A stretch of DNA of 64,000 nt, taken from positions 1-64,000 of IMG/VR virus record IMGVR_UViG_3300015371_000027. The stretch is one strand, 5' to 3'. The notes below the pieces were generated by a model. It saw nothing but the letters and a program-made list of their open reading frames with translations, was not told where the DNA came from and made no database searches. Origin of the DNA: a virus. Below are positions 23,900-42,828 of this stretch, piece by piece. A program made the translations under genes and the position numbers. How positions within the stretch are numbered: the stretch's first letter is position 1; every line of letters begins with the position of its first letter.

Positions 23900-23904
23900 T
23901 TTAT

Positions 23905-25743
23905 TTATCTATCAGTCGGAATACCTACTTCTCCAGCTTCCCCGATCAATCTCTGGAGAGAAGTATATGATATGTATACAGGAGGATAGCTTTTACCCCA
24001 TGAATTTCGAAGTTTTACCGCCTGCCTCGAATCACTAGCTCCATTAATACAAATAGCATGACCACCACGAATAGAAGACCAATCTGATCTAGTCCCAATC
24101 CAGTATTCAGTAATTGCACCGCGTTTCCTCATAACTGGTCTATCAAATTCCGAATACCAGTTACAACCCAAAACGCAAGGAATTCTCTGATTTATAGCAG
24201 CCCTGATATCATCTATTGTCTGAGCCCATCTATATATTTTAACGCCTTCTTTAACATCAGGACCATTACTTAATCTAGTACGTATATTTTCTATTACATG
24301 ACCTTTATTTTTCAGCGTATCAAAAGCCGCACGTATGGTAGAACCTTCTTGTGGAGGTGTATTTCTATTACCATCTACTAACTGTGCTTGTCTATAAAGC
24401 CAGAAAGCATCATAACCTAGATGGATAGCAAGTTTATTTAGAAGACTCATCACCCAGGAGGCAGAGAAACCTGTACAGTTATGTACGCCTACACCTTCAG
24501 CTATGTAAGATTCATCTCCCTCAACCGACATATTATATACGTAGTCATCGAATTTCGTGCTCTCTATTTTACGTAATTTTCTCCACGTATAATGTTCATC
24601 ACTCTCAGCCCGCCAGTGTTTATTAGTATCTAGTTGAAAACCAACTTCCCATATATTTTGTCGAACCTTAGCATACCTGTTATTAGAGGGCTCGCGTGTA
24701 CTTATAATAGGTTGGTAGCCTAGATAATTAATAATCTCAAACATACCAATTGCTAGATCATGAGAAATGGTAACTCCAGAAACTACATTTCGTTTACCAT
24801 TAGAAGTTTCATACCTACAATGACCATCTCCTAGTAACCAACCTTCTACAAGTCCAGCTAGAAATTCATCAGGGCCTGAGATAATATCAGGATGAATAAA
24901 CTTACTTCCTGATCCAGTTGCACATAATTTTTCAAATAATGTTTTCCATATTTTACCAAATATAGTTACAACTATACTACCATTACCTCTAATCTGCACG
25001 TAAGGCTCAACACCTAGTTTCTCTCTAAGTAGCTGATCTAATCTAGGAACAAGTGTTTTTCTTTCATGACCACCAAAATAGAATGATACTTTATTTGATG
25101 TAGTAGCTCCTTCAGCTAAAAATAAACCCACTATAACACCAAAATCATTATCTAATATAATCTCTTTAGGTGCAGGATTTAATCTTACAGTACAAATTCT
25201 ACGACCAGGAATTTGCCAATTTCTTGTTCCTGTAGTTTGAATTCTATTAAGATTAATATCTGCAAGATAATTGTAAGGCTTTATTTTCTTACTTACGTAC
25301 TCGGTAAGACACTTAGGGAATGCTATAAAATCATCTTCAGTAAGATTTTTAGCTTTAATATATCCTCTTTTTGTTAGAACAGGATGTTCAGGTGTGAGAG
25401 CAAGATGTTTATGACCCCATATAACTAAATTTAGTATATCTCCTTTATACTTTCTAACACTTAAATTAGTTACCTGCCCTACTCCACATTCAGCAGTCAT
25501 AACTCTATCAAGAAGATTTACATCTTCTATATGCTTGATAGAGCCATCAGACATTAGAATGTGAGTTCCAGCAGGAAAACACGCGCCTTCGTTTCCCTGA
25601 TTATAGAAAACGATCAATTCATCCATATAAGGTGTAGTTATAGTAGTCTCCACCTTTTTAGGGACTGGTAAAGCTGCACCTCTAATCGGATACTTCTCTA
25701 CATGCTCCCAATCCTGCGGTATCTTTCTACCTAAACCAGCCAT
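23905..25743 (-). CDS. Papain-like (C1) cysteine peptidase interrupted by an intein, 612 aa precursor
   Basis: Residues 1-54 and 423-612 together form a 244-residue C1-family peptidase: QGNEGA-C-TGFSASW (catalytic Cys 423 of the precursor), GGHAICINGAS (catalytic His) and LRNSWG (catalytic Asn). Residues 55-422 are an intein beginning at Cys55 and ending ...GVHN before Cys423. The peptidase is therefore broken exactly at its nucleophile and should be inactive until splicing. It lies just upstream of terminase in the late operon; prohead maturation, lysis, or entry are possible roles and none can be chosen from sequence. Confidence 0.88.
   Translation of the reverse strand: MAGLGRKIPQDWEHVEKYPIRGAALPVPKKVETTITTPYMDELIVFYNQGNEGACFPAGTHILMSDGSIKHIEDVNLLDRVMTAECGVGQVTNLSVRKYKGDILNLVIWGHKHLALTPEHPVLTKRGYIKAKNLTEDDFIAFPKCLTEYVSKKIKPYNYLADINLNRIQTTGTRNWQIPGRRICTVRLNPAPKEIILDNDFGVIVGLFLAEGATTSNKVSFYFGGHERKTLVPRLDQLLREKLGVEPYVQIRGNGSIVVTIFGKIWKTLFEKLCATGSGSKFIHPDIISGPDEFLAGLVEGWLLGDGHCRYETSNGKRNVVSGVTISHDLAIGMFEIINYLGYQPIISTREPSNNRYAKVRQNIWEVGFQLDTNKHWRAESDEHYTWRKLRKIESTKFDDYVYNMSVEGDESYIAEGVGVHNCTGFSASWVMSLLNKLAIHLGYDAFWLYRQAQLVDGNRNTPPQEGSTIRAAFDTLKNKGHVIENIRTRLSNGPDVKEGVKIYRWAQTIDDIRAAINQRIPCVLGCNWYSEFDRPVMRKRGAITEYWIGTRSDWSSIRGGHAICINGASDSRQAVKLRNSWGKSYPPVYISYTSLQRLIGEAGEVGIPTDR
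24478..25581 (-). mobile_element. Intein with LAGLIDADG (DOD) homing endonuclease, 368 aa
   Basis: Block A starts CFPAGTHILMSDG; block B contains LTPEHPVLT; the two dodecapeptides are GVIVGLFLAEG (about residue 209 of the precursor) and LAGLVEGWLLGDG (about 294); blocks F/G are DESYIAEGVGVHN followed by Cys at +1. All splicing residues (Cys1, block B His, penultimate His, Asn, Cys+1) are present, so splicing competence is expected. Both dodecapeptides retain the terminal acidic residue, so the homing nuclease may be active. Confidence 0.88.
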
Positions 25744-30499: not shown

Positions 30500-30720
30500 T
30501 TTTATATTATCCTAAGTATAAGTATACTTATGAGTTATCTAAGTACTTAGTACTAAGTACTAAGTACTTAGTACTAAGTATAAGTAGTACTTATACTTAG
30601 TACTAAGTACTTAGTACTAAGTATAAGTAGTACTACTACTACGTAGTAGTAGTACCTTATTCGCGCACGCGCATGTATATATCATATACGCGCATGTGTA
30701 TATGATATACGCATACGAGC
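30500..30720. repeat. Dense palindrome cluster, candidate origin or divergent control region
   Basis: Nested AAGTACTT / AGTACT palindromes repeat many times (30540-30630), followed by a perfect 26-bp palindrome at 30630-30655 built of TAC/GTA triplets around ACGT, then two direct copies of a 23-bp unit (GCGCATGTNTATATNATATA core) between about 30668 and 30716. The whole stretch is AT-rich and able to extrude hairpins. There is no ORF here. Confidence 0.8.
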
Positions 30721-32632: not shown

Positions 32633-32701
32633 TAGGTCTGGCAGGCAAAGGGTTTCCTGCGAGTGTATGCGACACTTACCCGTTCGAATCGGGCGGACCT
32701 A
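32633..32701 (+). ncRNA. tRNA-like element A
   Basis: 8-bp end stem TAGGTCTG / CGGACCTA; D-like arm GCAGG-(10)-CCTGC; middle arm AGTGT-ATGCG-ACACT; T-arm CCCG-TTCGAAT-CGGG directly followed by the 3' end strand. The T-loop is canonical, but the middle loop has five bases (or seven with A instead of U at position 33), and there is no variable region. No CCA is encoded. The sequence ACACTTACCCG can also pair with CGGGTAAAGTGT just upstream (32589-32600), an alternative fold. Confidence 0.55.
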
Positions 32702-32746
32702 TTCCTAGCATAATGCTAGGCTGTTACCTTCCAGAGGTAAGTTTCC

Positions 32747-32929
32747 GTGATTATCCTAATCGAAGAGGAAGACGGCCGTTTCTATGTCCTGTTCAGCAAG
32801 TCTGACTCTGGTATATGGCAGGAGTATGCCTGCTACCCTTCCCTGAGGGAAGCAAAAGACCGCGCAGGAACCTTTGCCCGGCAGAATGGAACGGGATTCT
32901 TCCTAGCTGAGAACTACTTCTCAGACTAA
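32747..32929 (+). CDS. Small strand-strand-helix-strand protein, 60 aa
   Basis: GTG start 7-10 nt after AGAGGTAAG. Layout RFYVLFSKSD-GIWQEYACYPS-LREAKDRAGTFARQ-GTGFFLAE: two strands, a helix with spaced Ala, a third strand. This is the first of a series of similar short proteins in the early array (see finding). Function unknown. Confidence 0.65.
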   Translation: MIILIEEEDGRFYVLFSKSDSGIWQEYACYPSLREAKDRAGTFARQNGTGFFLAENYFSD

Positions 32930-32937
32930 CCGCAGCA

Positions 32938-32978
32938 GACAGGAATGGTTTCCAGAGGGTTCGATTCCCTCTCCTGTC
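32938..32978 (+). ncRNA. tRNA-like element B (acceptor-T minihelix only)
   Basis: GACAGGA (32938-32944) pairs with TCCTGTC (32972-32978); between them a 10-nt linker and a canonical T-arm GAGGG-TTCGATT-CCCTC stack coaxially. D and anticodon arms are absent. The linker and T-stem start overlap TTTCCAGAG, a truncated form of the dispersed motif. Confidence 0.55.
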
Positions 32979-33038
32979 CTGTCCCCATAACCCTCGGCAA
33001 TCTAGCCAGGGGTTCCTTCCAGAGATAAGGTTACCATC

Positions 33039-34130
33039 ATGGCAGACACCTTTTACACAGCGTGCTACGCGTACGCCACCAAGCCAGACGGTTCGCCCCG
33101 TTTCCGCAGCATCTCCACAAACACGAGCATGCAGGGAGCAATCCTATCTGCTCAGAACTTCGACCGCCAGAATCCGGGTAGCCTGGTGGTAGTAACAGAC
33201 GGCAGTACACATCCTGTCTGGACGAATGAACCGGCAGAAGAGGACATTGAAGTATCGTTCCCTGCGTCCCTGACTGCCGTTCCCGAACCCATGCCCGTAC
33301 CCATGCCCGAGATATCTCGTTTCGTCCCTATGTCCGAACAGGTTTCGGACGATACCCCTACCCAACCTACCCAAGAGGAGAATGACATGTCCAAGAATCG
33401 CAAGCGCAATCTGTTCTCGATCCAGACGCTGAACAACAAAGGCCAGTGGTACGACATTAAGACATATGCTGCCGCTCCCCAGAAGGACGCGTGCAAGCAG
33501 GAAACCATTCGTCTGGCGAAAGAGAACCCTGGCAAGCCTTATCGCGCGGTCGGACACAAGCCTCAGACTGGCGACTACGTGTTCTGGAATTCCGCGGACA
33601 GTACTAACCCTGAGATTAATCCGCCGACTCCTGCGCCTGCGCCTGCCCCTAAGGCGAAGGACGAGAAAACCGAGAAAGAGCGGGATTCGAAGGACGAGAA
33701 AGAGCGGGATTCGAAGGAGAGAGCGTTCTGTCTGCTAGTGGGACAGTTCATGAACACGCCCGATGATGCAAACCTCGCGCGGCTTATACAAGCGGCAGTT
33801 TCTTTTCAGAAGTCTGCCTCTTCGCCTTCGACTCCGCCCGCTCCCGCTCCCCCCGCTCCTTTCTTCGACCGCGAGAAAGCGGTCCTCGCGGTTACCAATG
33901 CGCTTTCTAACGGTGCGGCGAATACCCGCGTCCTTCGGATGAGTCGGGTACAGGAAGGCGAGAACAAGAAGACTCTCGTCCGGTTCGGGACCTTCTCCGG
34001 TGCGATTCTCGGAAACTGCAAGTTCGGTTGTTATGCGAACGACTCCGAAATGGATTCCCTCGCGGAGTCGGTTTCCTTCGCCTTCGTAGAGGAGAGCGAA
34101 GGCGAGAGACTCTACACCAAGAAGGTCTAA
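33039..34130 (+). CDS. Two-module early protein, 363 aa
   Basis: Starts after the dispersed motif at 33016-33026 and an AAGG ribosome site. Residues 1-55 and about 122-175 are two copies of the small strand-strand-helix-strand module (FYTACYAYAT...; LFSIQTLNNKGQWYDI...), separated by Pro-rich linkers; the middle is a repeated Lys/Glu/Asp/Ser-charged segment and a Pro-Ala linker, then a C-terminal domain (about 268-360) with Phe/Gly-rich strands. Not recognised. GC content is higher than in downstream genes. Confidence 0.65.
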   Translation: MADTFYTACYAYATKPDGSPRFRSISTNTSMQGAILSAQNFDRQNPGSLVVVTDGSTHPVWTNEPAEEDIEVSFPASLTAVPEPMPVPMPEISRFVPMSEQVSDDTPTQPTQEENDMSKNRKRNLFSIQTLNNKGQWYDIKTYAAAPQKDACKQETIRLAKENPGKPYRAVGHKPQTGDYVFWNSADSTNPEINPPTPAPAPAPKAKDEKTEKERDSKDEKERDSKERAFCLLVGQFMNTPDDANLARLIQAAVSFQKSASSPSTPPAPAPPAPFFDREKAVLAVTNALSNGAANTRVLRMSRVQEGENKKTLVRFGTFSGAILGNCKFGCYANDSEMDSLAESVSFAFVEESEGERLYTKKV

Positions 34131-34155
34131 CCCGTCTCTCTCTCTCGTCCCTTTC

Positions 34156-34182
34156 TACCCGCCGGATAATCTCCGGCGGGTA
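34156..34182 (+). terminator. Hairpin after the 363-aa gene
   Basis: Perfect 11-bp stem TACCCGCCGGA / TCCGGCGGGTA with a 5-nt loop (TAATC). The following TTCTCGTCCC is only weakly U-rich, so it may be a leaky terminator or a processing/protection element. Confidence 0.6.
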
Positions 34183-34219
34183 TTCTCGTCCCTGTCTCTT
34201 CGTCTCTAGGAGATAACCC

Positions 34220-34495
34220 ATGTCCGCTAAGCCCATGTTCCTCGTCTTCGGTTTTACCCCTGCTTCCATGCGACAAGTTCCTGAGGGAACCCTCGTATAC
34301 GTTATACGAGCAAACCCTACCCGGAAGAAAGGACGGGGTGGATTCGAAGTGTTCGCTGGACCTTGTACTGCTGAGCGAGCTATCCCTCTTTCCGAAGAGC
34401 ACGCTGCTCTTGCCCATGCCCGTCTAACCGAAGCGGGATATACCCGTGTTACCTGCGTTCCCGTTCCCTCTCTTGCGTCTGTACGCCCCTTCTAG
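34220..34495 (+). CDS. Hypothetical small protein, 91 aa
   Basis: Strong AGGAG ribosome site 8 nt before ATG. Contains FLVFGFTPASMRQV and LVYVIRANP as strand-like segments then a helix (SEEHAALAHARLTEAG) and a final strand, so it fits the small early-protein family. Not recognised. Confidence 0.65.
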   Translation: MSAKPMFLVFGFTPASMRQVPEGTLVYVIRANPTRKKGRGGFEVFAGPCTAERAIPLSEEHAALAHARLTEAGYTRVTCVPVPSLASVRPF

Positions 34496-34505
34496 GAGTA
34501 TCCCT

Positions 34506-34784
34506 GTGTCTACCTGTACCCGTCCTTCGCCTTCGTTCCTCTTCGTCGTACGTCCGAAGGGTTCCCGACCGGAAACCTTCCCTGCTGACATGCTGCGGTA
34601 CGATGCCTGCGAACCTGCCGATGAAGTTTCGCGCTATCTAGTGGAAACGAGGAACGCGAAAGGACGTTCCATTCCTACCCTGTCCGGTATTGCCCTTCGT
34701 TCCCTTCGTTCCCCTACCCCTGAGCGGTGGGAGTCCTTCGGTTGGTCGGTAGTATCTGTTACCCGCGAGAAGGTAAAGGAGTAA
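34506..34784 (+). CDS. Hypothetical small protein, 92 aa
   Basis: GTG at 34506 with TAGGAG 8 nt upstream is preferred over the in-frame upstream ATG at 34446, which would overlap the previous gene by 50 nt. Arg/Ser-rich, begins MSTCTRPSPSFLFVVRPKG. Not recognised. Confidence 0.6.
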   Translation: MSTCTRPSPSFLFVVRPKGSRPETFPADMLRYDACEPADEVSRYLVETRNAKGRSIPTLSGIALRSLRSPTPERWESFGWSVVSVTREKVKE

Positions 34785-34791
34785 CCCTGCC

Positions 34792-35013
34792 ATGCGTATC
34801 TCAGACATGCGAACCGCTAGGATGAAAGGCGAATACATCGCTGTTTCGTACGACCGCAAAGGTGTCTGGCAGCAGACATGGCTAGTCGGTTGTGATCTAC
34901 CCGACGCGATAAAGGAAGCTCGACATATCCGGGCGTACGTGAGCAACGGTTCCCGCGTGGAACTACAGGATGATAGGAATCGCCCCGTCGTAACCTTCTA
35001 CTCCGCCCGCTAA
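34792..35013 (+). CDS. Small strand-strand-helix-strand protein, 73 aa
   Basis: GGAGTAACC upstream. Pattern EYIAVSYDRKGVWQQTWLVG-helix-RVELQDDRNRPVV, with a Trp-containing second strand as in 32747-32929. Function unknown. Confidence 0.62.
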   Translation: MRISDMRTARMKGEYIAVSYDRKGVWQQTWLVGCDLPDAIKEARHIRAYVSNGSRVELQDDRNRPVVTFYSAR

Positions 35014-35034
35014 CCCTCGTCTCTCGTCCCTAGG

Positions 35035-35066
35035 AACCCGTTAGCTAACCCTAGCGGGTTTCTTCT
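35035..35066 (+). terminator. Hairpin between small early genes
   Basis: AACCCGTTAG / CTAGCGGGTT (10 bp, one T-G wobble) with a CTAACC loop, followed by TCTTCTCTCG. Terminator-like but with an imperfect U-tract. Confidence 0.55.
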
Positions 35067-35098
35067 CTCGTCTCTCGTTCCCGTTAAGGAGTAAACCC

Positions 35099-35425
35099 AT
35101 GTCCGAATCCAAATCCGAACCCTTCTGGAATGAAGTAGCGAACCACCTACCCGCATTCCAGGCGAGAGTAATCGCGTTTGCTGCTCGCCTTTCGACAGAT
35201 CAGAGAGTATCGCGGTATTGCCAGCGGCTGATACTGGCCGGCTATCGCTTAGACGGTAGTAAGAAGCCGGGCGTCATGGCGTGGCTAATGCGAAATGGGC
35301 ATGCGGGATTCGTCCCGTCCCCTAACATGCCCTACTATGGCGATTATGTCCGTAATGGTTGGGCAAGTAATGAGTACGCCCGACGTGCTATCGCGGGTAT
35401 GGATACCCATACCGTAAAGGAGTAA
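35099..35425 (+). CDS. Hypothetical protein, 108 aa
   Basis: AAGGAG eight nt before ATG. Mostly helical with RVIAFAARLSTDQRVSRYCQRLI and an aromatic Tyr/Trp-rich tail. Not recognised, no cysteine or catalytic motif. Confidence 0.62.
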   Translation: MSESKSEPFWNEVANHLPAFQARVIAFAARLSTDQRVSRYCQRLILAGYRLDGSKKPGVMAWLMRNGHAGFVPSPNMPYYGDYVRNGWASNEYARRAIAGMDTHTVKE

Positions 35426-35465
35426 TACTCGTTAATCCTCTCTCGCCTTTCCCCCGCTATCCCGT

Positions 35466-35545
35466 AGGAACGCTAGGAAGGTCCCTAGCATATCTCCGAT
35501 TCTTTTCCAGAGATATTGTGTCGGGTTCGATTCCCGACCGTTCCT
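35466..35545 (+). ncRNA. tRNA-like element C
   Basis: AGGAACG / CGTTCCT 7-bp end stem; D-like CTAGG-(6)-CCTAG; middle stem ATATCTC / GAGATAT with a 13-nt loop; T-arm GTCGGG-TTCGATT-CCCGAC. The dispersed-motif variant TTTCCAGAGAT (35504-35514) covers the 3' part of the middle loop and the 3' strand of the stem. The 13-nt loop is not an anticodon loop. Confidence 0.6.
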
Positions 35546-35582
35546 GTGTCCCCTACCCTCTCCTAGAAAGGAGCAAGTTCCC

Positions 35583-35852
35583 ATGTTCCGTTTCCGCACC
35601 CGTCGATATCGCGTGTTCTGCGAGAAGGATGGAGAGACTCTCTTGGTGTCTGAAACCATGGGCGACCATGGCAGGGTTGTCTGTGTCGGATTCTCTCGTT
35701 CCTTCCCTCGCGACGGTTCGCTAACGGGTTTCCATTGGTCGGAAAGCTATGCTAGGAAGATCGTTTCCTGCCTGAGGGACGTTCCTGGTGTATCGAATAT
35801 CCGACGAGAACTCGTCTCTTCGGAATCCCTCTATGGGTCGTACTGCCTGTAA
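35583..35852 (+). CDS. Hypothetical small protein, 89 aa
   Basis: AAAGGAGC nine nt upstream of ATG. RYRVFCEKDGETLLVSE and RVVCVGFS look like strands, followed by helix ESYARKIVSCLR and strand ISNIRREL. Member of the small strand/helix series by layout. Function unknown. Confidence 0.6.
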   Translation: MFRFRTRRYRVFCEKDGETLLVSETMGDHGRVVCVGFSRSFPRDGSLTGFHWSESYARKIVSCLRDVPGVSNIRRELVSSESLYGSYCL

Positions 35853-35901
35853 ACCCTAGCGCGTCTCTAGCGCGTTCTCTCGTCCGTACCCTACGATCCT
35901 A

Positions 35902-35947
35902 GCAGGAGAGGGTTCCTAACCCTCTCCTGCCTTCCCTTCTCCCTTTT
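35902..35947 (+). terminator. Long hairpin, terminator-like
   Basis: Perfect 13-bp stem GCAGGAGAGGGTT / AACCCTCTCCTGC with a 3-nt loop, followed by CTTCCCTTCTCCCTTTT. The pyrimidine-rich tail is compatible with termination. GCAGGAGAGGG also occurs at 32459 in the structured segment. Confidence 0.6.
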
Positions 35948-35959
35948 AGGAGTATCCCT

Positions 35960-36187
35960 GTGCGTATCCCTAACCGTTCAGACATAAAGGTATCCTGTCC
36001 CTCATGCGGGCGTTCTTTCTCGCATGGGATTCCCTTCATGGAACATGCGACGGTCGTATACAGGCGAACCTGTCAGAATCCCGATTGCCGGGAAAAGTGG
36101 AACCTCGTAGTTAAGCCGTTAGGTGGTAAGCCTAAGCAGTACTTCGCCCATGAAGTAACCTTCGCCTTCCTAGGAGTAAAGGAGTAA
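35960..36187 (+). CDS. Small zinc-ribbon protein, 75 aa
   Basis: GTG start after TAGGAG. CPSCGRSF and a downstream CQNPDC (C-x2-C, C-x4-C) predict a zinc ribbon (residues about 14-50), the common fold of small phage regulators binding nucleic acid or RNA polymerase. No further call. Confidence 0.65.
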   Translation: MRIPNRSDIKVSCPSCGRSFSHGIPFMEHATVVYRRTCQNPDCREKWNLVVKPLGGKPKQYFAHEVTFAFLGVKE

Positions 36188-36191
36188 ATCC

Positions 36192-36416
36192 ATGCGCTCG
36201 ATTCCTTCCCCGGAGAAGTATCTCTCTACCGTCTATCGACGCGCTAAGCGTGCTCGTATGCATAGCCTAGAGGATAAGCTTAAGCATACCCGCCGAAAGC
36301 TTCGTACGACTATCCCCTACGCTAACCCGTACTGGGAGTATTGGTTCGAACGATACGAACACCTGTCTGCTGCTTTAAGAGTAAATAATACCCGCAACCA
36401 AAGTAATACCCGCTAA
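36192..36416 (+). CDS. Basic small protein, 74 aa
   Basis: Very basic and helical (KRARMHSLEDKLKHTRRKL) followed by YANPYWEYWFERYEHL. May bind nucleic acid. Directly linked to the zinc-ribbon gene (4-nt gap). Confidence 0.55.
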   Translation: MRSIPSPEKYLSTVYRRAKRARMHSLEDKLKHTRRKLRTTIPYANPYWEYWFERYEHLSAALRVNNTRNQSNTR

Positions 36417-36435
36417 CCCTCGCTTAGGTTAGGGT

Positions 36436-36520
36436 TCCCTTTGCCCGTACGGTACGGGACCTATCTATCCTTACCTTCCAGAGATAGGATGGATAACGCG
36501 GTTCGATTCCGCGCGAGGGA
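36436..36520 (+). ncRNA. tRNA-like element D, motif presented in a 14-nt loop
   Basis: TCCCTTT pairs with CGAGGGA (6 of 7 positions, one G-U); D-like CCCG-TACGGTA-CGGG; middle arm TATCTATCCT / AGGATGGATA (10 bp, one G-T) closing a 14-nt loop whose last 11 bases are exactly CTTCCAGAGAT (36475-36485); T-arm CGCGG-TTCGATT-CCGCG. No anticodon loop of seven bases exists. Confidence 0.6.
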
Positions 36521-36587
36521 GTAGTGTATCGGAATAATCCGGTCGCTAGATCGCTTCGGTTAAGAAGCGCTAGGAGAAACCGTTCCC

Positions 36588-37025
36588 ATGAGTTACCCGC
36601 AAGTGTATCTGTTCCCTCGTAGCGATGGAAACTGGTGGTACGAGCGTTTTAATACCCGTAAGGATTCCTTCGTGGAATCGACGGGTCTGCCCGTAGGTAT
36701 CTTTACCTTTCAGGCAGTAGAGTTCTTGCTAAGGAATGGCGGAGCGTTTCCCGAAGGAACCTTCTTTGACTATCGCAATAGCGAAGTGGAATGGTTAGAA
36801 GCAGGCAACCCTAACCATACTCCTAAGGGTTACGGTCCTTTATCTCTGGAAAGAAAAGAGGTTTGGAGTAACACGCAAACGAGAGGGAAGGTATCTGTAA
36901 GCCAATTCTGCATGGATAGCATGTGGTATCCCCTTCAGGATTGCGCGGGTAGTAGGGTATTACTTTCGCAAGAAGGCTTTAGTACGCCTGAGTTAGCATG
37001 GGCGTTTGTAAAGGAGAACAGGTAA
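36588..37025 (+). CDS. Hypothetical protein, 145 aa
   Basis: AGGAGAAACC precedes ATG. Aromatic-rich N-terminus (YPQVYLFPRSDGNWWYERF), resembles the two-strand start of neighbouring small proteins, then a longer C-terminal part ending FSTPELAWAFVKENR. Not recognised. A small hairpin (CGCTTC-GGTTAA-GAAGCG) lies in the leader. Confidence 0.6.
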   Translation: MSYPQVYLFPRSDGNWWYERFNTRKDSFVESTGLPVGIFTFQAVEFLLRNGGAFPEGTFFDYRNSEVEWLEAGNPNHTPKGYGPLSLERKEVWSNTQTRGKVSVSQFCMDSMWYPLQDCAGSRVLLSQEGFSTPELAWAFVKENR

Positions 37026-37032
37026 ACAAACC

Positions 37033-37299
37033 ATGCCCCGATCTATCGTGCTACGAAACGCGCAGTATACTGCGTTAGGTATCGCGCTTCACTTCATCAA
37101 AGGAGTACGTATCTTTTTCGACGAAAAAGACGTTAAGTATAACGGAGTAATCCTCGCTATGGAAAGGTACGCTATGGAAACTCCTATCACGCATTACTTC
37201 ATTCTACTGCGGATAGAACACTGTCCTAAACCTGTTCGCTTTCTCGTCCCTGTCCGCCCTTCGACTAACGTTATCTCTTCCAGAGATAACCAGGAGTAA
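37033..37299 (+). CDS. Hypothetical small protein, 88 aa
   Basis: Contains a central hydrophobic strand (THYFILLRIEHC) and a basic N-terminus. The stop lies in a hairpin-forming copy of the dispersed motif (GTTATCTC-TTCCA-GAGATAAC, 37270-37290), read in this frame as ISSRDNQE. Confidence 0.6.
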   Translation: MPRSIVLRNAQYTALGIALHFIKGVRIFFDEKDVKYNGVILAMERYAMETPITHYFILLRIEHCPKPVRFLVPVRPSTNVISSRDNQE

Positions 37300-37309
37300 G
37301 GAGTAACCC

Positions 37310-37537
37310 ATGCCCGAACAAGAACAGGAACCAATTTACGCTATCTATCGCTTCGTATCTAAACAGGAGTTAGGTACGCCAGGAGTTATGGAAGTAACGA
37401 GAGACTTCGTACGCTCCTACGCTTCTCCCGTGGTAGCTATGGGCCATGCCCTAACGATCAAACATAACTCCGATCCAGACTATGTTTGGATTAGGGTTAA
37501 GAACCTGGCGACAGGAGAATGGATAGAGGTTAACTAG
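37310..37537 (+). CDS. Small strand-strand-helix-strand protein, 75 aa
   Basis: IYAIYRFVSKQ, VTRDFVRSYASP, helix VVAMGHALTI and YVWIRVKNLATGEW reproduce the array layout. Ribosome site GGAGTAACC. Function unknown. Confidence 0.6.
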   Translation: MPEQEQEPIYAIYRFVSKQELGTPGVMEVTRDFVRSYASPVVAMGHALTIKHNSDPDYVWIRVKNLATGEWIEVN

Positions 37538-37539
37538 CC

Positions 37540-37773
37540 ATGCATATGTACGACATAGGTAATCTTCCCGTTCCGCCTATCGAAGAGAGAGGACCGTTTC
37601 CCGAAGAGGAAGAGATAACCGTCTCTTATTCCGAAGCCGGACGAAGGATTTACTACCGTTCGCCTAGCGGTAGTACCTACCCTGCGACGGTTCTATTCCG
37701 TCTCTCTACGGGTTTGTATCGTCTCTCTGTAAACGGTAGACCCGTTTATGCTTCTCCCGAACAGGTAAGTTAA
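37540..37773 (+). CDS. Hypothetical acidic small protein, 77 aa
   Basis: N-terminal Pro/Glu region (PPIEERGPFPEEEEI), then Tyr/Ser-rich strands (ATVLFRLSTGLYRLSVNGRPV). Follows the previous gene by two nucleotides. Not recognised. Confidence 0.55.
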   Translation: MHMYDIGNLPVPPIEERGPFPEEEEITVSYSEAGRRIYYRSPSGSTYPATVLFRLSTGLYRLSVNGRPVYASPEQVS

Positions 37774-37775
37774 CC

Positions 37776-37976
37776 ATGCGACGGCTTTACTACATCGAAA
37801 ACACGGTACGTACGAATACCATACTGTCCTCTTATCCCGAGGAAAGGGTTATCGAGAGGATTAAAGAGCAGTACCCGGATGTTAAGTTCATCTATCGAGA
37901 AACTACTTCAAAGGAGTATGATGCTATGGATGGAGAACAGTATGTATTACTATGGGAAAGAGATAAGTTAGACTAA
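37776..37976 (+). CDS. Small alpha/beta protein, 66 aa
   Basis: Pattern RRLYYIENTVRTN, helix EERVIERIKEQYP, strand VKFIYRETTS, then QYVLLWERDK. Fits the array layout. Ribosome site is weak and translation probably couples to the previous gene. Confidence 0.55.
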   Translation: MRRLYYIENTVRTNTILSSYPEERVIERIKEQYPDVKFIYRETTSKEYDAMDGEQYVLLWERDKLD

Positions 37977-37985
37977 CTATTTCAC

Positions 37986-38073
37986 AGGGAAACACGCTTC
38001 ATGGAGCGGTCCTTATCTTATCTCTGGAAGGAAAGGTAAGGATGTAATAGGGTTCGAATCCCTATGCTTCCCT
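37986..38073 (+). ncRNA. tRNA-like element E, motif in reverse orientation in a 13-nt loop
   Basis: AGGGAA / TTCCCT plus C-G beyond an A-C mismatch; D-like CGCT-TCATGG-AGCG; middle arm TCCTTATCTT / AAGGTAAGGA (10 bp, one T-G) with loop ATCTCTGGAAGGA, i.e. the reverse complement of the dispersed motif at 38020-38030; T-arm ATAGGG-TTCGAAT-CCCTAT. Same architecture as element D with the motif flipped. Confidence 0.6.
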
Positions 38074-38126
38074 TTCCCTTACTTAACAATCCCGTTAAGA
38101 AGGGCGTTTGCATCGAGAGGGTTATT

Positions 38127-38309
38127 ATGTACTCGGTAGACGTTAAGCTTCCCGTTTCCGCTAAGGCAGGCGCGTGGCAGTTTGTTAAGTACTGCGGTTC
38201 TATCCCTGTAGCGGAGAAGGACATTAACAGGGTAAAGTCTCTTTCCAGAGATAACCCAGAGTTCCGCATTCGTGATACCCGAACGAATAAGATCATTCGT
38301 TCTTACTAG
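38127..38309 (+). CDS. Small alpha/beta protein, 60 aa
   Basis: ATG at 38127 with GAGAGG upstream is preferred over an in-frame ATG at 38064, which sits in the 3' part of tRNA-like element E. Sequence MYSVDVKLPVS-AWQFVKYCGS-helix-EFRIRDTRTNKII again shows the array layout. Motif variant TTTCCAGAGAT at 38242-38252 encodes LSRDN. Confidence 0.55.
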   Translation: MYSVDVKLPVSAKAGAWQFVKYCGSIPVAEKDINRVKSLSRDNPEFRIRDTRTNKIIRSY

Positions 38310-38330
38310 GAGAGGAAGAGGAAAAAGAGA

Positions 38331-38603
38331 ATGTCTAAGCTTATTAAGAACCCGACTGTGTGGGAATCTGTGCCTGTGTGGGAATCTGTATCCGGTATCC
38401 CTACAGAACAAACAATTTACTCTGTTCACATAATCAATGATATGATGATTGAGAGTGGAGGTGTAATGTTTTCTAGCTTAGAGAAAGCGAAGGAGTATGC
38501 GGAAAATCTGAAAGTAGTCCCTTATATATCCATGATCTATATCATAGAGAGTAAGCGTGTTTGTGTAGTTAAGAACGGGCAAGAGGAGAAAGAGAATGCT
38601 TAG
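38331..38603 (+). CDS. Small strand-strand-helix-strand protein, 90 aa
   Basis: N-terminal 20 residues include a short repeat (TVWESVPVWESVSG), then TIYSVHIINDM, GGVMFSS-LEKAKEYAENL helix and MIYIIES strand. A clear member of the array series. Ends overlapping the next ATG by 8 nt. Confidence 0.62.
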   Translation: MSKLIKNPTVWESVPVWESVSGIPTEQTIYSVHIINDMMIESGGVMFSSLEKAKEYAENLKVVPYISMIYIIESKRVCVVKNGQEEKENA

Positions 38604-38781
38604 GTATGCTGTTTACTTCGGAGAAATAGAAGTAGCTAACTTCGTTATGGGTATCCATGCCATGAAGTTTGCTCGGGACACGTTTAATGCGAGAGAAAAG
38701 GGCATGCTCTACTGCTCGATTAAGGTGGTAAACAAAGAGACAGGACACATCCCCGTCTATTACGAAGAGGTAAAGGAGTAA
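38596..38781 (+). CDS. Small strand-strand-helix-strand protein, 61 aa
   Basis: RYAVYFGEIEVANFVMGIHA-MKFARDTFNA helix-LYCSIKVVNKETG: same layout as neighbours but with its own sequence. Ribosome site GAGGAGAAAG inside the preceding gene. Confidence 0.62.
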   Translation: MLRYAVYFGEIEVANFVMGIHAMKFARDTFNAREKGMLYCSIKVVNKETGHIPVYYEEVKE

Positions 38782-38784
38782 CCC

Positions 38785-39006
38785 ATGCCACTTAAGTTCG
38801 TAGAACCGGAAGCACCTAAATACGAGGTATGGTATCTCTTGCAGGATAGATACCAAGGTAAACCTTCTTTTGTTTCGAAACAAGAAGCCCTTAACTTCTT
38901 GGTAAAGCTTAAGAAGAAACCCGATCTCGTAGAGGCTAGACTCTACAGGGTAAGTAATAGGCTGTCCTACCATAACGAGGACATAGACCCGAGAAGGAGT
39001 CTCTAG
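38785..39006 (+). CDS. Small strand-strand-helix-strand protein, 73 aa
   Basis: YEVWYLLQDRYQGKPSFVSK-QEALNFLVKL helix-VEARLYRVSN. Ribosome site AAGGAG. The FxS-x-x-EAxxF junction between strand 2 and the helix is shared with 38331 and 39116. Function unknown. Confidence 0.65.
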   Translation: MPLKFVEPEAPKYEVWYLLQDRYQGKPSFVSKQEALNFLVKLKKKPDLVEARLYRVSNRLSYHNEDIDPRRSL

Positions 39007-39024
39007 CTACCCGTCGAAGTTAAT

Positions 39025-39080
39025 AGTAGAGACGAAACTAAACCCTTTGTCTCTACTTCCCCATACCGGACTATTCCGGT
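39025..39080 (+). terminator. Two hairpins after a gene of the small-protein array
   Basis: AGTAGAGAC / GTCTCTACT (9 bp, 15-nt loop) then ACCGGA-CTAT-TCCGGT (6 bp). No strong U-tract, so termination or RNA processing are both possible. Confidence 0.5.
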
Positions 39081-39115
39081 AGTTCCCTCGCTTCTAGTAA
39101 AGGAAAGGAAAACCC

Positions 39116-39352
39116 ATGCGAAGAGTAAGGAAGGGAAAACCCGCTTTCTACACTGTGACAGTAGAAACTAAAAAAGTAATAAACGGATTAAACGGATACA
39201 GTCGTATCTTTAACTCTGAAGAGAAGGCTAATGCTTTTGCCCAGACAATTCTGGAAAGAGAGAATACTGAACTTCTAAAAGAAGTATCCATCGTTAAAAC
39301 CGTAACCCTGGTTTGCTTCTCTAACGATCCGAAGAAGGAAGATTATGAGTAA
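39116..39352 (+). CDS. Small strand-strand-helix-strand protein, 78 aa
   Basis: AFYTVTVETKKV, GYSRIFNS-EEKANAFAQTILE helix, LKEVSIVKTVTLV. Clearest sequence similarity in the array to 38331 and 38785 (FxS-x-EkAxxFA). Its end overlaps the next gene (ATGAGTAA). Confidence 0.65.
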   Translation: MRRVRKGKPAFYTVTVETKKVINGLNGYSRIFNSEEKANAFAQTILERENTELLKEVSIVKTVTLVCFSNDPKKEDYE

Positions 39353-39485
39353 AGATAAAGCCCTTCCGATAGCGATATTCCTGTTCGTTATGTTTGCCAT
39401 ATCTATGGCGATAGGAGATTTAACAATAGCAGCAGTACTGATAATGTCTGCTGTTATCGTGCTTATACTAGAAAGGGGAAACTAG
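39345..39485 (+). CDS. Two-helix membrane miniprotein, 46 aa
   Basis: ATG overlaps the stop of the previous gene. Residues about 6-22 and 25-41 are hydrophobic (ALPIAIFLFVMFAISMA; LTIAAVLIMSAVIVLIL) separated by Gly-Asp, so it is a likely two-pass inner-membrane peptide. Role unknown. Confidence 0.65.
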   Translation: MSKDKALPIAIFLFVMFAISMAIGDLTIAAVLIMSAVIVLILERGN

Positions 39486-39487
39486 GA

Positions 39488-39805
39488 ATGCCTAAAGATG
39501 GTAATTATGGAATGCAAGCATTAGAACCAGACGATGGTAATACCACTTGCGAGTTCGAATATTCGCAACCAGAGTTTCCTACCCGATATCAAATCGTAAT
39601 ATACGAAGACGATCTAACGCCCGTCTTTTATGCATGGTCGGAAGACGAGTTAATATGGGTTACTATAACTCCCGAAGTAATGCCTAGAGAAGCAGTACAA
39701 GCCCTTAAGATTGCTGTATGGTTAGAGATGAAAGGAAGAGAGATTAACTCTCTTAAAGATGAACTGTTTCCTGAAATGCGACTTAATATGAAAGGAAGAA
39801 AATAG
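39488..39805 (+). CDS. Hypothetical acidic protein, 105 aa
   Basis: Acidic, contains RYQIVIYEDDLTPVFYAWSEDEL and a long C-terminal helix (EAVQALKIAVWLEMKGREI). Not recognised. Confidence 0.6.
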   Translation: MPKDGNYGMQALEPDDGNTTCEFEYSQPEFPTRYQIVIYEDDLTPVFYAWSEDELIWVTITPEVMPREAVQALKIAVWLEMKGREINSLKDELFPEMRLNMKGRK

Positions 39806-39806
39806 A

Positions 39807-40424
39807 ATGCCGACGCCAGACGAGATTATGCAGGATAAGGAGTTATCTTCCAGAGATAAGCTTGCGCGTATGAGGAAACTCGTATGCGAACTTCCTAAAG
39901 GAAGTAAAATGTACCATCTTGCAGTTAAGTACTGCGGGCAACTGTACGACTATGTATTAGATGAAAAGTCGGAAATAGGTAAAGTCATGATCGAAGTAGT
40001 AGCGGCTCGAAAGAAGACGTATGTTAAGCCAGGAGAAATTTTCATATCCGCTAACCCATATAGCGAGGTATGTATGCATATGAAGGTAGCTGGAAAGCTA
40101 CAAGCCAAATACATTACCACGGGTAGATATCCGATGGTACAGCTTCTCAATCTAGAAAACCCTGCTCTCCCTTGTCCTTTCTCCTTCCCTATTACACTAG
40201 GAGAAGGCGGAATATATAGGGAAGACGAAGGGAAATATTACTACGTTCCCGAATATGCGATTAATATTCCCGAAGCAGTATATGAGTACGATAATGGGTT
40301 CTGCTACTACGACGAAGTACAGGGGAATGTAGGACCTTTTTCTTCCAGAGATGAGGCTGAGAAGGATAGAGCAGCCTACATAGACAAGCTTATAGAAGAG
40401 AGGAGAAACGAGAATGTCGGGTAG
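39807..40424 (+). CDS. Hypothetical protein, 205 aa
   Basis: The dispersed motif occurs twice in frame as SSRD: at 39847-39857 near the N-terminus (ELSSRDKLARM), where it forms the hairpin TTATC-TTCCAGA-GATAA, and at 40342-40352 near the C-terminus (PFSSRDEAEKDR). Middle is beta-rich with Tyr/Asn/Glu (YREDEGKYYYVPEYAINIPEA region). No family recognised. Confidence 0.62.
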   Translation: MPTPDEIMQDKELSSRDKLARMRKLVCELPKGSKMYHLAVKYCGQLYDYVLDEKSEIGKVMIEVVAARKKTYVKPGEIFISANPYSEVCMHMKVAGKLQAKYITTGRYPMVQLLNLENPALPCPFSFPITLGEGGIYREDEGKYYYVPEYAINIPEAVYEYDNGFCYYDEVQGNVGPFSSRDEAEKDRAAYIDKLIEERRNENVG

Positions 40425-40716
40425 ATATCGCCCCGTTAGCGAGGTAACGAAAACTATTCTTATGATTATTCCCGATACGGAAAAGGCAATTAAGAATGAG
40501 TTTAAGGAAGCTACCCGGCATATTATGTCGAGTGGCCCGTATCGTGCGCCTGAGGATCAGGCTGATCTCTGGAAAGAATTACTGTATGCATTATCTAGCA
40601 TCGTAGGGGACCCTGGAGAAAGAGAATGGGCGATTAAAATATCGCTCATTATGCGCGGGAAAATTGACTACAGAATATACATGCCATCCCATAAAAGGGA
40701 TGAGAATAGGAGCTAA
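40414..40716 (+). CDS. Hypothetical helical protein, 100 aa
   Basis: Overlaps the previous gene by 11 nt. Helical (AIKNEFKEATRHIMSSG, EDQADLWKELLYALSSIV) and basic. A CTCTGGAAAG-type motif near 40565. Not recognised. Confidence 0.58.
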   Translation: MSGRYRPVSEVTKTILMIIPDTEKAIKNEFKEATRHIMSSGPYRAPEDQADLWKELLYALSSIVGDPGEREWAIKISLIMRGKIDYRIYMPSHKRDENRS

Positions 40717-40718
40717 GC

Positions 40719-41093
40719 TTGTTATTATTGCTGAGGTATGAGGAAGTAGAAGAGAAGCTAAGAGCGTGGCAAAAGATTCTACGCTTACAGGATTGGTTTG
40801 TGGAAGTAGAAATAGTTCGCAAGCATGAAATGGAATGGCATACTTCTAAAGGAGAGGTATGGACGAGAACTAATGCTAATAGGGCATTGATTAAACTACT
40901 TGACCCTGTGGACGATACTTGTCCTAAAACTGATCCTTATGATATGGAAGAAACTCTCGTGCATGAGTTACTACATCTACATATGGATAGGTTCGAACCT
41001 CCGAAAGAGGATACGATTAGGAGCAACGAATTAGAGCGAACTATAGATACATTAGCAAACGTGCTAGTAAATCTGTATAGGGATAGGAGCTAA
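40719..41093 (+). CDS. HExxH metallopeptidase-like protein, 124 aa
   Basis: ETLVHELLHLHMDRF carries the zinc-peptidase HExxH motif (H-E-L-L-H, about residue 85), preceded by DWFVEVEIVRK and EVWTRTN strands as in SprT-like or ImmA-like small metallopeptidases. TTG start at 40719 with AGGAG 6 nt upstream. The third zinc ligand is not obvious, so activity is unproven. Possible targets are host or phage repressor-type proteins. Confidence 0.65.
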   Translation: MLLLLRYEEVEEKLRAWQKILRLQDWFVEVEIVRKHEMEWHTSKGEVWTRTNANRALIKLLDPVDDTCPKTDPYDMEETLVHELLHLHMDRFEPPKEDTIRSNELERTIDTLANVLVNLYRDRS

Positions 41094-41102
41094 CGTTTAG
41101 GT

Positions 41103-41168
41103 TTCCCTCGTGCTCAGGTAGCTTATTTCCTTTCAGAAATAAAGAGCGTTCGAATCGCTCCGAGGGAA
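41103..41168 (+). ncRNA. tRNA-like element F
   Basis: 8-bp TTCCCTCG / CGAGGGAA; D-like GCT-CAGGT-AGC; middle TTATTTC-CTTTCA-GAAATAA (7 bp, 6-nt loop); T-arm GAGCG-TTCGAAT-CGCTC stacked on the end stem. 66 nt. CTTTCAGAAAT is a one-base variant of the A-type dispersed motif. CTTTCA resembles a Glu anticodon loop but the loop is one base too short. Confidence 0.6.
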
Positions 41169-41220
41169 TGCTCCCTATTAACAATAGAGTTAATGGGAGT
41201 ATGTGCCAGGAGAAGGATAA

Positions 41221-41610
41221 ATGTCTAAGGGAGTAAAGCAGGTTAAGCGTATGTCCATTGTCGGCCTTAAGGTAGAAAGGGTAATTGATGAGGAAGAAGT
41301 AACAGTCGCATGTGAGACTAATAAAACGCATTATGCCCTTACGACGGATGGAACTAGTGTTAGTTATCACCTATCGCTAGATGATGCTGACTCTTTCATT
41401 AAATGCGAGTACGAGGAGGTTCCGCCTAGAGTAATTCAAGCTTTTGCAGAAGACCTTCTGGAAATTGCATGGGATCAAGCGAAGAAGCTTCGGAAAGAAG
41501 AAGACGACGAAGATGAAGATAACGAAGACGATGAGGATAGCGAGGACGAAGAGGGCGAAGACGAGGAGGAAGAAGATGAAGATGAAGATGAAGATGAAGA
41601 CGATGACTGA
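41221..41610 (+). CDS. Protein with long acidic tail, 129 aa
   Basis: Residues 1-90 form a small alpha/beta domain (VKQVKRMSIVGLKVERVIDEEEVTVACE, ALTTDGTSVSYHLSL). The last 37 residues are nearly all Asp/Glu, coded by GAA/GAC/GAG/GAT triplets. Acidic tails of this kind mimic DNA or bind basic proteins; no family was recognised. Confidence 0.62.
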   Translation: MSKGVKQVKRMSIVGLKVERVIDEEEVTVACETNKTHYALTTDGTSVSYHLSLDDADSFIKCEYEEVPPRVIQAFAEDLLEIAWDQAKKLRKEEDDEDEDNEDDEDSEDEEGEDEEEEDEDEDEDEDDD

Positions 41611-41634
41611 ATAAATAATAATATAAAAAGAATA

Positions 41635-41991
41635 ATGGATATATACGAGGGTCGAACAAAACACCACGACAACAGTATATATGATATATTCATGGCTCTA
41701 GTTCATATAAAACCTGCTTCTTTATGCTGTAAATCCAGTTTAGAGGAGCTAGGTTTATATAAGGGTATACTAAAACTGGCAAAGTGTGAAGGGTTAACAA
41801 CTGCTTTATGGTTAGGTACGATTATCGTAGGTAAGAAAGAGAGTGTGAATGAGATAGTAGAAGTATTCACCAAAGGTATAAGGGGTAACGAAAGGCACAG
41901 ACGACTTGGTAAAGCGTTAGGTTATTCTGATGAGATGATCGAGCAGTTTATAAGGAAGATAGACGAAGATGAAGACGAGGACGAAGAATGA
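41635..41991 (+). CDS. Hypothetical helical protein, 118 aa
   Basis: Helical with two adjacent Cys (SLCCKSSLEELGLYKGI), ends in a short acidic tail (IDEDEDEDEE). Overlaps the next gene (ATGA). Not recognised. Confidence 0.55.
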   Translation: MDIYEGRTKHHDNSIYDIFMALVHIKPASLCCKSSLEELGLYKGILKLAKCEGLTTALWLGTIIVGKKESVNEIVEVFTKGIRGNERHRRLGKALGYSDEMIEQFIRKIDEDEDEDEE

Positions 41992-42266
41992 AGACGACAC
42001 AATATGTATGCGATAGCTGTAATAAACCGTTTGAACCAGGCTACAATAAGGAAGGAGGTATAGCTTCCGATACGGAAGATAAGTATATAAAGATAAAGGA
42101 AGGAGTGTACCTGTTCATCTCTGGAAGTAATTATGGGAAAGATGCCCATAGCTACAAAGGAATTGTGAGACCTACGGATATCTGTATGAAGTGTATTGCC
42201 GTCGCTCTAGGGTTAAATCCTAACCCTACGTTTAAGCTTAAAAAGGGAGAGAGTTACGATGTTTAA
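41988..42266 (+). CDS. Small zinc-ribbon-like protein, 92 aa
   Basis: YVCDSCNKPF (C-x2-C) near residue 6 and DICMKCIA (C-x2-C) near residue 66 make a four-Cys zinc site. The dispersed motif at 42117-42127 reads FISGSNYG. Function unknown. Confidence 0.62.
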   Translation: MKTTQYVCDSCNKPFEPGYNKEGGIASDTEDKYIKIKEGVYLFISGSNYGKDAHSYKGIVRPTDICMKCIAVALGLNPNPTFKLKKGESYDV

Positions 42267-42744
42267 TGTATCGAATGCGGCTGATGGTGGAATTCTTATC
42301 GAAGCCGAAGAAGAGAACAAGTTTTCTCTTATCGTTAACGTCTCTATCGAAGAGGCTTATGATCTTGCAAAGGAGCTAATGAAAGCCGCTATTATGGCGG
42401 AGATGAAGAAGGCTACGTTTAAGGTTCCGTCTTCTACTCCTACCTCGCCACCTATCAAGGTAGGAACAATATCGGGAGGAAAGTTAGAGATAACTAATCC
42501 TACTGTTACTGCTCCCGTTAGTAAGCCGAAGGAAGAGAAGAAAGATAAGGAACCTGTCCTGATTATTACGCCTGATATGATTGACGAAGAGGAAGATGAG
42601 GACGAGGACGAGGATACTCCCGCCGATCCTTTTGCAGACGAGGAAGAGAAAGAGGAAGAGGAAGAGGAAGAGGAAGAGGAAACTCCTCCGCCAGTAGAAG
42701 TACCTGCTCCTAAGAAGAAGAACGGGAAGAAAAAGAAGAAGTAA
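42259..42744 (+). CDS. Protein with acidic tract and basic tail, 161 aa
   Basis: N-terminal 65 residues form a small helical domain (EEAYDLAKELMKAAIMAEM), then a Pro/Thr linker, an acidic tract (about residues 108-145) and a Lys tail (KKKNGKKKKK). Overlaps the previous stop by 8 nt. Confidence 0.62.
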   Translation: MFNVSNAADGGILIEAEEENKFSLIVNVSIEEAYDLAKELMKAAIMAEMKKATFKVPSSTPTSPPIKVGTISGGKLEITNPTVTAPVSKPKEEKKDKEPVLIITPDMIDEEEDEDEDEDTPADPFADEEEKEEEEEEEEEETPPPVEVPAPKKKNGKKKKK

Positions 42745-42762
42745 TTAAGTAAGTAGAAGGAT

Positions 42763-42828
42763 TCCCTGGCTATGGTAGCTATTTCTGGAAGTAAAGGATT
42801 TACTAGGGTTCGATTCCCTAGCAGGGAT
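42763..42828 (+). ncRNA. tRNA-like element G
   Basis: TCCCTG / CAGGGA end stem; D-like GCTA-TGG-TAGC; T-arm CTAGGG-TTCGATT-CCCTAG. The A-type dispersed motif ATTTCTGGAAG (42781-42791) replaces the middle arm, followed by GTAAA-GGA-TTTAC, which could form its own hairpin. No anticodon loop. Confidence 0.55.

Follow-up and report, generated by a model that had tools for sequence, protein, structure and literature searches.

The DNA considered here is a 64 kb stretch of viral sequence (positions 1 to 64,000 of IMG/VR record IMGVR_UViG_3300015371_000027, hereafter the window), and in particular seven transfer RNA (tRNA)-like elements, e1 to e7, that lie between small genes near its middle. The full virus record is 67.1 kb long; its ends overlap by 445 nt at 94% identity, and the genome is therefore about 66.6 kb and either circular or permuted. 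From about 1 to 30 kb the minus strand carries the portal, terminase, major head and tape-measure genes, the terminase being about 39% identical to those of Salinibacter phages. The plus strand, up to 64 kb, carries genes for a helicase, a DNA methylase, an exonuclease, a Sak4-like protein, a DNA polymerase and a primase. The elements occupy the start of the plus-strand genes, where small open reading frames (ORFs) have no clear family match; from the gene layout, this region is presumably expressed early.

Seven tRNA-like elements

The elements and their parts are as follows.

32633–32701, plus strand: e1; acceptor TAGGTCT/GGACCTA; D-like arm GCAGG-CAAAGGGTTT-CCTGC; arm GAGTG-TATGCGA-CACTT; T-arm ACCCG-TTCGAAT-CGGGC, with an A·C mismatch in the T-stem; 45 nt upstream of the start at 32747 (first ORF)
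32938–32978, plus strand: e2; a bare 41-nt acceptor-T minihelix, GACAGGA ... GAGGG-TTCGATT-CCCTC TCCTGTC, in which only ATGGTTTCCA (10 nt) replaces all arms between acceptor and T-arm
35467–35544, plus strand: e3; acceptor GGAACGC/CCGTTCC; D-like arm TAGG-AAGGTC-CCTA; 7-bp middle stem holding TTCCAGA; T-arm TCGGG-TTCGATT-CCCGA
36436–36520, plus strand: e4; acceptor TCCCTTT/CGAGGGA; D-like arm CCCGTA-CGG-TACGGG; 10-bp middle arm holding CTTCCAGAGATA; T-arm CGCGG-TTCGATT-CCGCG
37988–38071, plus strand: e5; acceptor GGAAACA/TGCTTCC; D-like arm CGCT-TCATGG-AGCG; long middle arm with the TTCCAGA motif reversed in its loop (TCTGGAAG); T-arm TAGGG-TTCGAAT-CCCTA
41104–41167, plus strand: e6; acceptor TCCCTCG/CGAGGGA; D-like arm GCT-CAGGT-AGC; middle arm TTATTTC-CTTTCA-GAAATAA; T-arm GAGCG-TTCGAAT-CGCTC
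42763–42827, plus strand: e7; acceptor TCCCTGG/GCAGGGA; mini D-arm CTA-TGG-TAG; irregular middle part with TCTGGAAG (motif reversed); T-arm TAGGG-TTCGATT-CCCTA

Both strands of the 66.6 kb genome were scanned for a 12-bp acceptor plus T helix closed by a TTCRANN loop, with 11 or more positions paired and an energy-like threshold applied. The scan returned exactly these seven and no other match, and 40 first-order Markov shuffles of the genome gave a mean of 0.25 matches (maximum 1). The build is common to all: a 7-nt acceptor strand and a 5-nt T-stem strand face their partners without a spacer, no element has more than one mismatch over the 12 helix positions, and three of the five mismatches in total fall at the 7:66 junction. 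The T-loop is always TTCGAAT or TTCGATT, and G53:C61, G57 and T60 are invariant throughout, though they lay outside what the scan required. The acceptors of e4, e6 and e7 are related to each other (TCCC..), as are those of e3 and e5 (GGAA..).

In tRNA, G18G19 of the D-arm contacts the T-loop, and a D-loop GG can close the elbow. Every element except e2 has a D-like hairpin that begins 0–1 nt past the acceptor and carries GG in the loop; the chance of such a hairpin in shuffled sequence is 0.009–0.25 per element and about 0.002 combined by Fisher's method. The first-pass annotation, made from the sequence alone, had described T-arms with these two loops stacked on an end stem in seven places and a short D-like arm in six, and both descriptions hold. 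Its statement that there is no variable loop applies to e1 and e6, where the loop is absent or about 1 nt, but not to e3–e5, which have a few nt.

Pairing, decoding features and relatives

The seven paralogous copies were trimmed to 31 helix and loop positions and compared with one another. Standard pairs occupy 94% of cells, a figure that is partly circular because the elements were selected by pairing; the fair tests of pairing are the shuffles, the genome-wide scarcity and the T-arm positions that were not asked for. Two-sided changes occur at 11 of the 12 helix pairs, and the covariation score of 1.03 exceeds the values for shuffled sequences (0.25) and for slid partners (at most 0.31). 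Primary sequence thus varies from copy to copy and pairing is retained. A lack of compensatory change in relatives had been named beforehand as grounds for abandoning the elements; such change is present, among seven paralogous copies only, and it argues against both DNA-level sites and simple decay, explanations considered below.

What is missing is the means of decoding. None of the seven has a 5-bp anticodon stem with a 7-nt loop bearing U33 and R37: e1 has a 5-bp/7-nt arm, yet with A at 33; the middle loop of e6 is 6 nt; e4, e5 and e7 have long or irregular middle arms; and in e3 two 7-nt loops do have T at 33, though their stems are imperfect and position 37 is C or T. A 3' CCA is encoded in none of them. 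Rfam at curated cut-offs made no call for any element, and ARAGORN called one, e6 (at 41103), as 'tRNA-???' with a 2-nt anticodon, so that no canonical tRNA with a standard anticodon, the other result that would have counted against the annotation, was obtained. The mascRNA is an animal RNA made from MALAT1. In searches up to E = 10, e2 and e5 matched the mascRNA-menRNA model (RF01684) at 22.6 and 20.1 bits, below its cut-off of 42.5, and e3 matched tRNA-Sec (RF01852) at 21.8 bits, below 47. The transfer-messenger RNA (tmRNA) model RF00023 matched no element up to E = 10, while a search at curated cut-offs does report a match in an unrelated phage locus, L009. Since there is no decoding arm and no CCA, and given the Rfam and ARAGORN outcomes, the seven are best described as tRNA-like and outside the canonical tRNA family, in line with the previous view that they are not the usual phage tRNA set. 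Their likeness to tRNA genes resides in consensus D- and T-loop features, and no parent tRNA was found.

Two other possibilities were considered. An origin as leftovers of integration into tRNA 3' ends was rejected, as both acceptor strands are present and paired, and inspection by eye revealed no bulge-helix-bulge introns.

IMG/VR scans with the portal, terminase, helicase, DNA polymerase and primase proteins found no relative carrying the element region; they returned one near-identical contig, G001 (36 kb), which lacks that region. Alignment of the terminase added 29 contigs, most at 44–50% identity, and such an array was absent from ten loci (stretches of up to 20 kb) covering five of these 29. 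Megablast of phage records gave no match. When about 1.5 Mb of other loci were scanned as a control, 32 matches were obtained, about half of them ARAGORN tRNAs; the rest were single chance matches, a tmRNA-like domain in contigs L007–L010, a tRNA-Pro without a D-arm in L159, and tRNAs in L071 that have short D-loops and anticodons read as normal. The L159 gene, near 16291 on the minus strand of a contig with a related terminase, resembles tRNA-Pro(UGG) and was missed by ARAGORN. The unrelated phage locus L009 (5965–6940) contains, in addition to its tmRNA-like domain, a manA RNA and T-arm-like hairpins with no evident acceptor partners.

These comparisons bear on the foremost of four rival explanations, which is that the elements are diverged phage tRNA genes, decaying or working with odd anticodon arms and gathered singly between genes, whose acceptor and T arms survive since the loss is recent or some are still charged. 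The D- and T-loops match the tRNA consensus, ARAGORN calls e6, e1 has its anticodon-like arm, and the shared acceptors (e4/e6/e7 and e3/e5) look as if copied from two ancestors; the L159 gene further suggests that such phages tolerate odd tRNAs. Decay, however, should strike the helices, and these are kept with compensatory change, only the anticodon region being free; a decoding loop is kept in none of the seven, and six are not called at all. We consider this explanation unlikely.

Gaps, the TTCCAGA motif and other features of the genome

All seven elements are on the plus (sense) strand, in the noncoding gaps of a single gene string, gaps that make up 1320 of its 9935 nt; the annotated placement among early genes is thereby supported, with 'early' taken from the layout. 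Elements e2 to e7 begin 8, 41, 19, 11, 10 and 18 nt, respectively, past the preceding stop codon and leave 60, 38, 67, 55, 53 and 37 nt before the next start, with purine-rich stretches resembling ribosome-binding sites between element and start. Ten gaps are at least 80 nt long, and all are structured: six contain an element and four, used here as controls, contain long plain hairpins (11–13 bp stems).

34157–34182, plus strand: plain 11-bp hairpin, in control gap 34131–34219, without an element
35033–35064, plus strand: plain 13-bp hairpin, in control gap 35014–35098, without an element
35903–35931, plus strand: plain 13-bp hairpin, in control gap 35853–35959, without an element
39025–39083, plus strand: plain 12-bp and 7-bp hairpins, in control gap 39007–39115, without an element

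Promoter-like sites of the sigma-70 type number 13 in the region against 15.8 by chance, and the lack of an excess is compatible with long transcripts, though promoters of other types may be present.

The elements could also be decoys, a role that the first-pass annotation had suggested as well: RNAs that build up early and, by means of their elbow and acceptor-T helix, tie up the host's tRNA nucleases or tRNA-modifying enzymes. Seven differing copies within an early region of small, uncharacterized genes would suit this, and phages are known to use tRNAs against the tRNA nucleases of their hosts (PMC10264068). In the known counter-defence, however, the tRNAs are functional and differ in the anticodon loop, the part that the nucleases recognize (PMC10264068) and that is missing here; nor do decoys give a reason for placement in stop-to-leader gaps over a tRNA cluster. 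This makes them rather improbable, and a similar judgement, ranking just after, applies to folds that stay uncut, protecting 3' ends or insulating leaders in place. The plain long hairpins of the other gaps speak for such folds, as structure as such may be what counts, but a plain hairpin would then suffice everywhere, and the conserved T-loop, G53:C61, D-loop GG and 7+5 geometry are left unexplained.

A second feature of the genome runs through the elements. The 7-mer TTCCAGA occurs 110 times in the 66.6 kb genome (48 plus, 62 minus) and 105 times in the window, where about 23 copies are expected under a third-order Markov model; its extended consensus, roughly TTTYC-TTCCAGA-RAT, is asymmetric.

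33017, 37278, 39848, 45613 and 47185, plus strand: examples of motif copies dispersed across the window
20644, 27070, 36851 and 38029, minus strand: further examples, likewise dispersed

The motif is found both in gaps and in genes. Copies within genes fall in each of the six possible frames with respect to the coding sequence, for which reason the motif looks like a DNA-level signal; spacing is Poisson-like, with a coefficient of variation of 0.98, and so not regular. Exact copies are present in five elements (forward in e2, e3 and e4, reverse in e5 and e7) and e6 has the variant TTTCAGA, the position being always between the D-like arm (in e2, the acceptor) and the T-arm. By a rough post hoc estimate, about 0.4 copies would be expected in the approximately 175 nt of free element sequence, at a gap density of about 1 per 440 nt; within the early gaps alone, five of seven exact sites are inside elements, a marginal excess (about 0.05). 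No enrichment was seen in the terminase relatives, and in viral and bacterial collections the motif, sought there as a possible signature of a host or of viruses, was, among the matches listed, scattered at one per genome without strong enrichment, which is a weak negative. A joint pattern of motif and T-arm was also tried and returned only an unrelated phage region. Near record position 66020, in L006, there is a terminator-like hairpin, AAAAATAGGGG...CCCCTATTTTTTTTT, the inner part of which holds TTCCAGA reversed.

The motif is relevant to the last rival, in which the elements act as DNA, for instance as recombinase sites for attachment or cassette exchange, or as carriers of the dispersed motif. 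Small genes of unassigned family alternate with elements, and six of the seven contain the 7-mer, exact or variant, in either orientation. Varying sequence with persistent pairing is, on the other hand, the reverse of what a DNA site should show, and the motif is genome-wide, with most of its 110 copies inside genes. Such sites are very improbable, and they come last among the rivals, after diverged tRNA genes, decoys and uncut protective folds.

Three further features of the genome were observed. The gap separating the two divergent gene arms contains, at 30543–30632, four copies of nested CTTAGTACTAAG palindromes, an array that is a possible operator or replication origin. The terminase gene (23380–23910, minus strand) has a −1 shift of reading frame at the classic slippery heptamer G GGA AAA; the change falls within the Walker A motif (KTGNAVGK, then SHAAARIAIW), is identical in G001, and may be either programmed frameshifting or a shared sequence error. 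The gene at 23905–25743 (minus strand) encodes a protein with an intein-splicing domain; the flanking halves, judged by eye, resemble a papain-type cysteine peptidase, and the intein adjoins a Cys that is possibly catalytic.

Proposed processing signals in early RNA

It is, in our judgement, an even bet that the seven elements are tRNA-like cutting signals in early phage RNA. They would be descended from tRNAs or mimic them, selection for decoding having been relaxed, and would retain what tRNA-maturing enzymes read: the 12-bp acceptor/T helix, the T-loop and, in six, the D-loop GG. Host RNase P, plus RNase Z or 3' exonucleases, would cut a single long early transcript at the elements, so that the upstream message ends just past its stop codon and the downstream one keeps a short leader with its ribosome-binding site, the benefit presumably being early messages that can be tuned separately. 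The plain hairpins of the four other long gaps may serve the same job by a different route. A narrower formulation, that an array of decoding-incompetent tRNA mimics supplies RNase P/RNase Z marks segmenting a polycistronic early RNA, is held more tentatively. In an extended form, TTCCAGA or its complement in loops at the anticodon position could pair mutually or with motif copies in phage messages.

Punctuation by tRNAs is known from mitochondria. RNase P, RNase Z and CCA-adding enzymes read the parts of a tRNA that are conserved in the elements, and ribosomes and most synthetases read the parts that are lost. Cutting signals are favoured because conservation sits in the processing features, and because of the parallels with plant t-elements and with RNase P substrates other than tRNA. 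The anatomy fits punctuation by RNase P, which the first-pass annotation had put forward: elements near stops, leaders of 37–67 nt, and structure in every gap of at least 80 nt.

Several points weigh against cutting signals. Four equally long gaps do without an element, which is therefore not a universal separator; part of the pairing signal, as noted, follows from selection; four elements begin U1:A72 rather than G1:C72; and no orthologue of the region was found in the viral collection with the five proteins. CCA, which helps bacterial RNase P, is also not encoded: cleavage is more efficient with a 3' CCA, as with the dimeric precursor of phage T4 (PMC11143913), so efficiency would be lowered in bacteria of the Escherichia coli type, and RNase Z or tailing may need to act first.

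The acceptor/T helix geometry is shared with model and non-tRNA substrates of RNase P (acceptor-T minihelices, M3 RNA, C4 RNA), and e2 is such a minihelix; those, however, are synthetic or single RNAs. We know of no intergenic array of them. Among the non-tRNA substrates that bacterial RNase P is able to cut are the phage RNAs M3 and C4 and polycistronic messenger RNAs (mRNAs) (PMC11143913). The closest parallel is with the t-elements of plant mitochondria, tRNA-like structures at mRNA ends in which no CCA is encoded; RNase P and RNase Z cleave them, and they are neither aminoacylated nor used in translation (PMC11658184). Judged by gene positions, the phage elements are likewise tRNA-like folds near putative mRNA ends without CCA, and they too may be read by a subset of tRNA enzymes. 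The t-elements are demonstrably cleaved and clearly homologous to tRNA genes, whereas the phage elements are known from sequence, differ in their carrier, are seven and mutually different, and have the anticodon arm replaced. The mascRNA and menRNA are also small RNAs of acceptor plus T-arm, weakly matched by e2 and e5, but these matches are below cut-off and mascRNA occurs once per locus. Phage-encoded tRNAs (T4, C1 mycobacteriophages) share the phage location, the acceptor, T-arm and D-arm and, often, the lack of an encoded CCA; they differ in having anticodons and being usually clustered, where the elements have none and are scattered between early genes.

No phage precedent was found in the open-licence literature, and since coverage was of open-licence papers, the claim to novelty is provisional: if it stands, no arrangement of this kind has been described before in a bacterial virus. 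Standard annotation misses nearly all of the elements, finding one of seven and assigning it no amino acid, and similar elements may therefore be overlooked in other phages. The proposed cleavage lends itself to a direct test with synthetic transcripts and standard RNase P. Phage tRNAs have long been puzzling, and explanations for them rest on decoding or on resisting anticodon nucleases. If the present reading is true, the elements would separate the processing role of the phage tRNA fold from its decoding role, and would represent a viral use of that fold in the architecture of messenger RNA.

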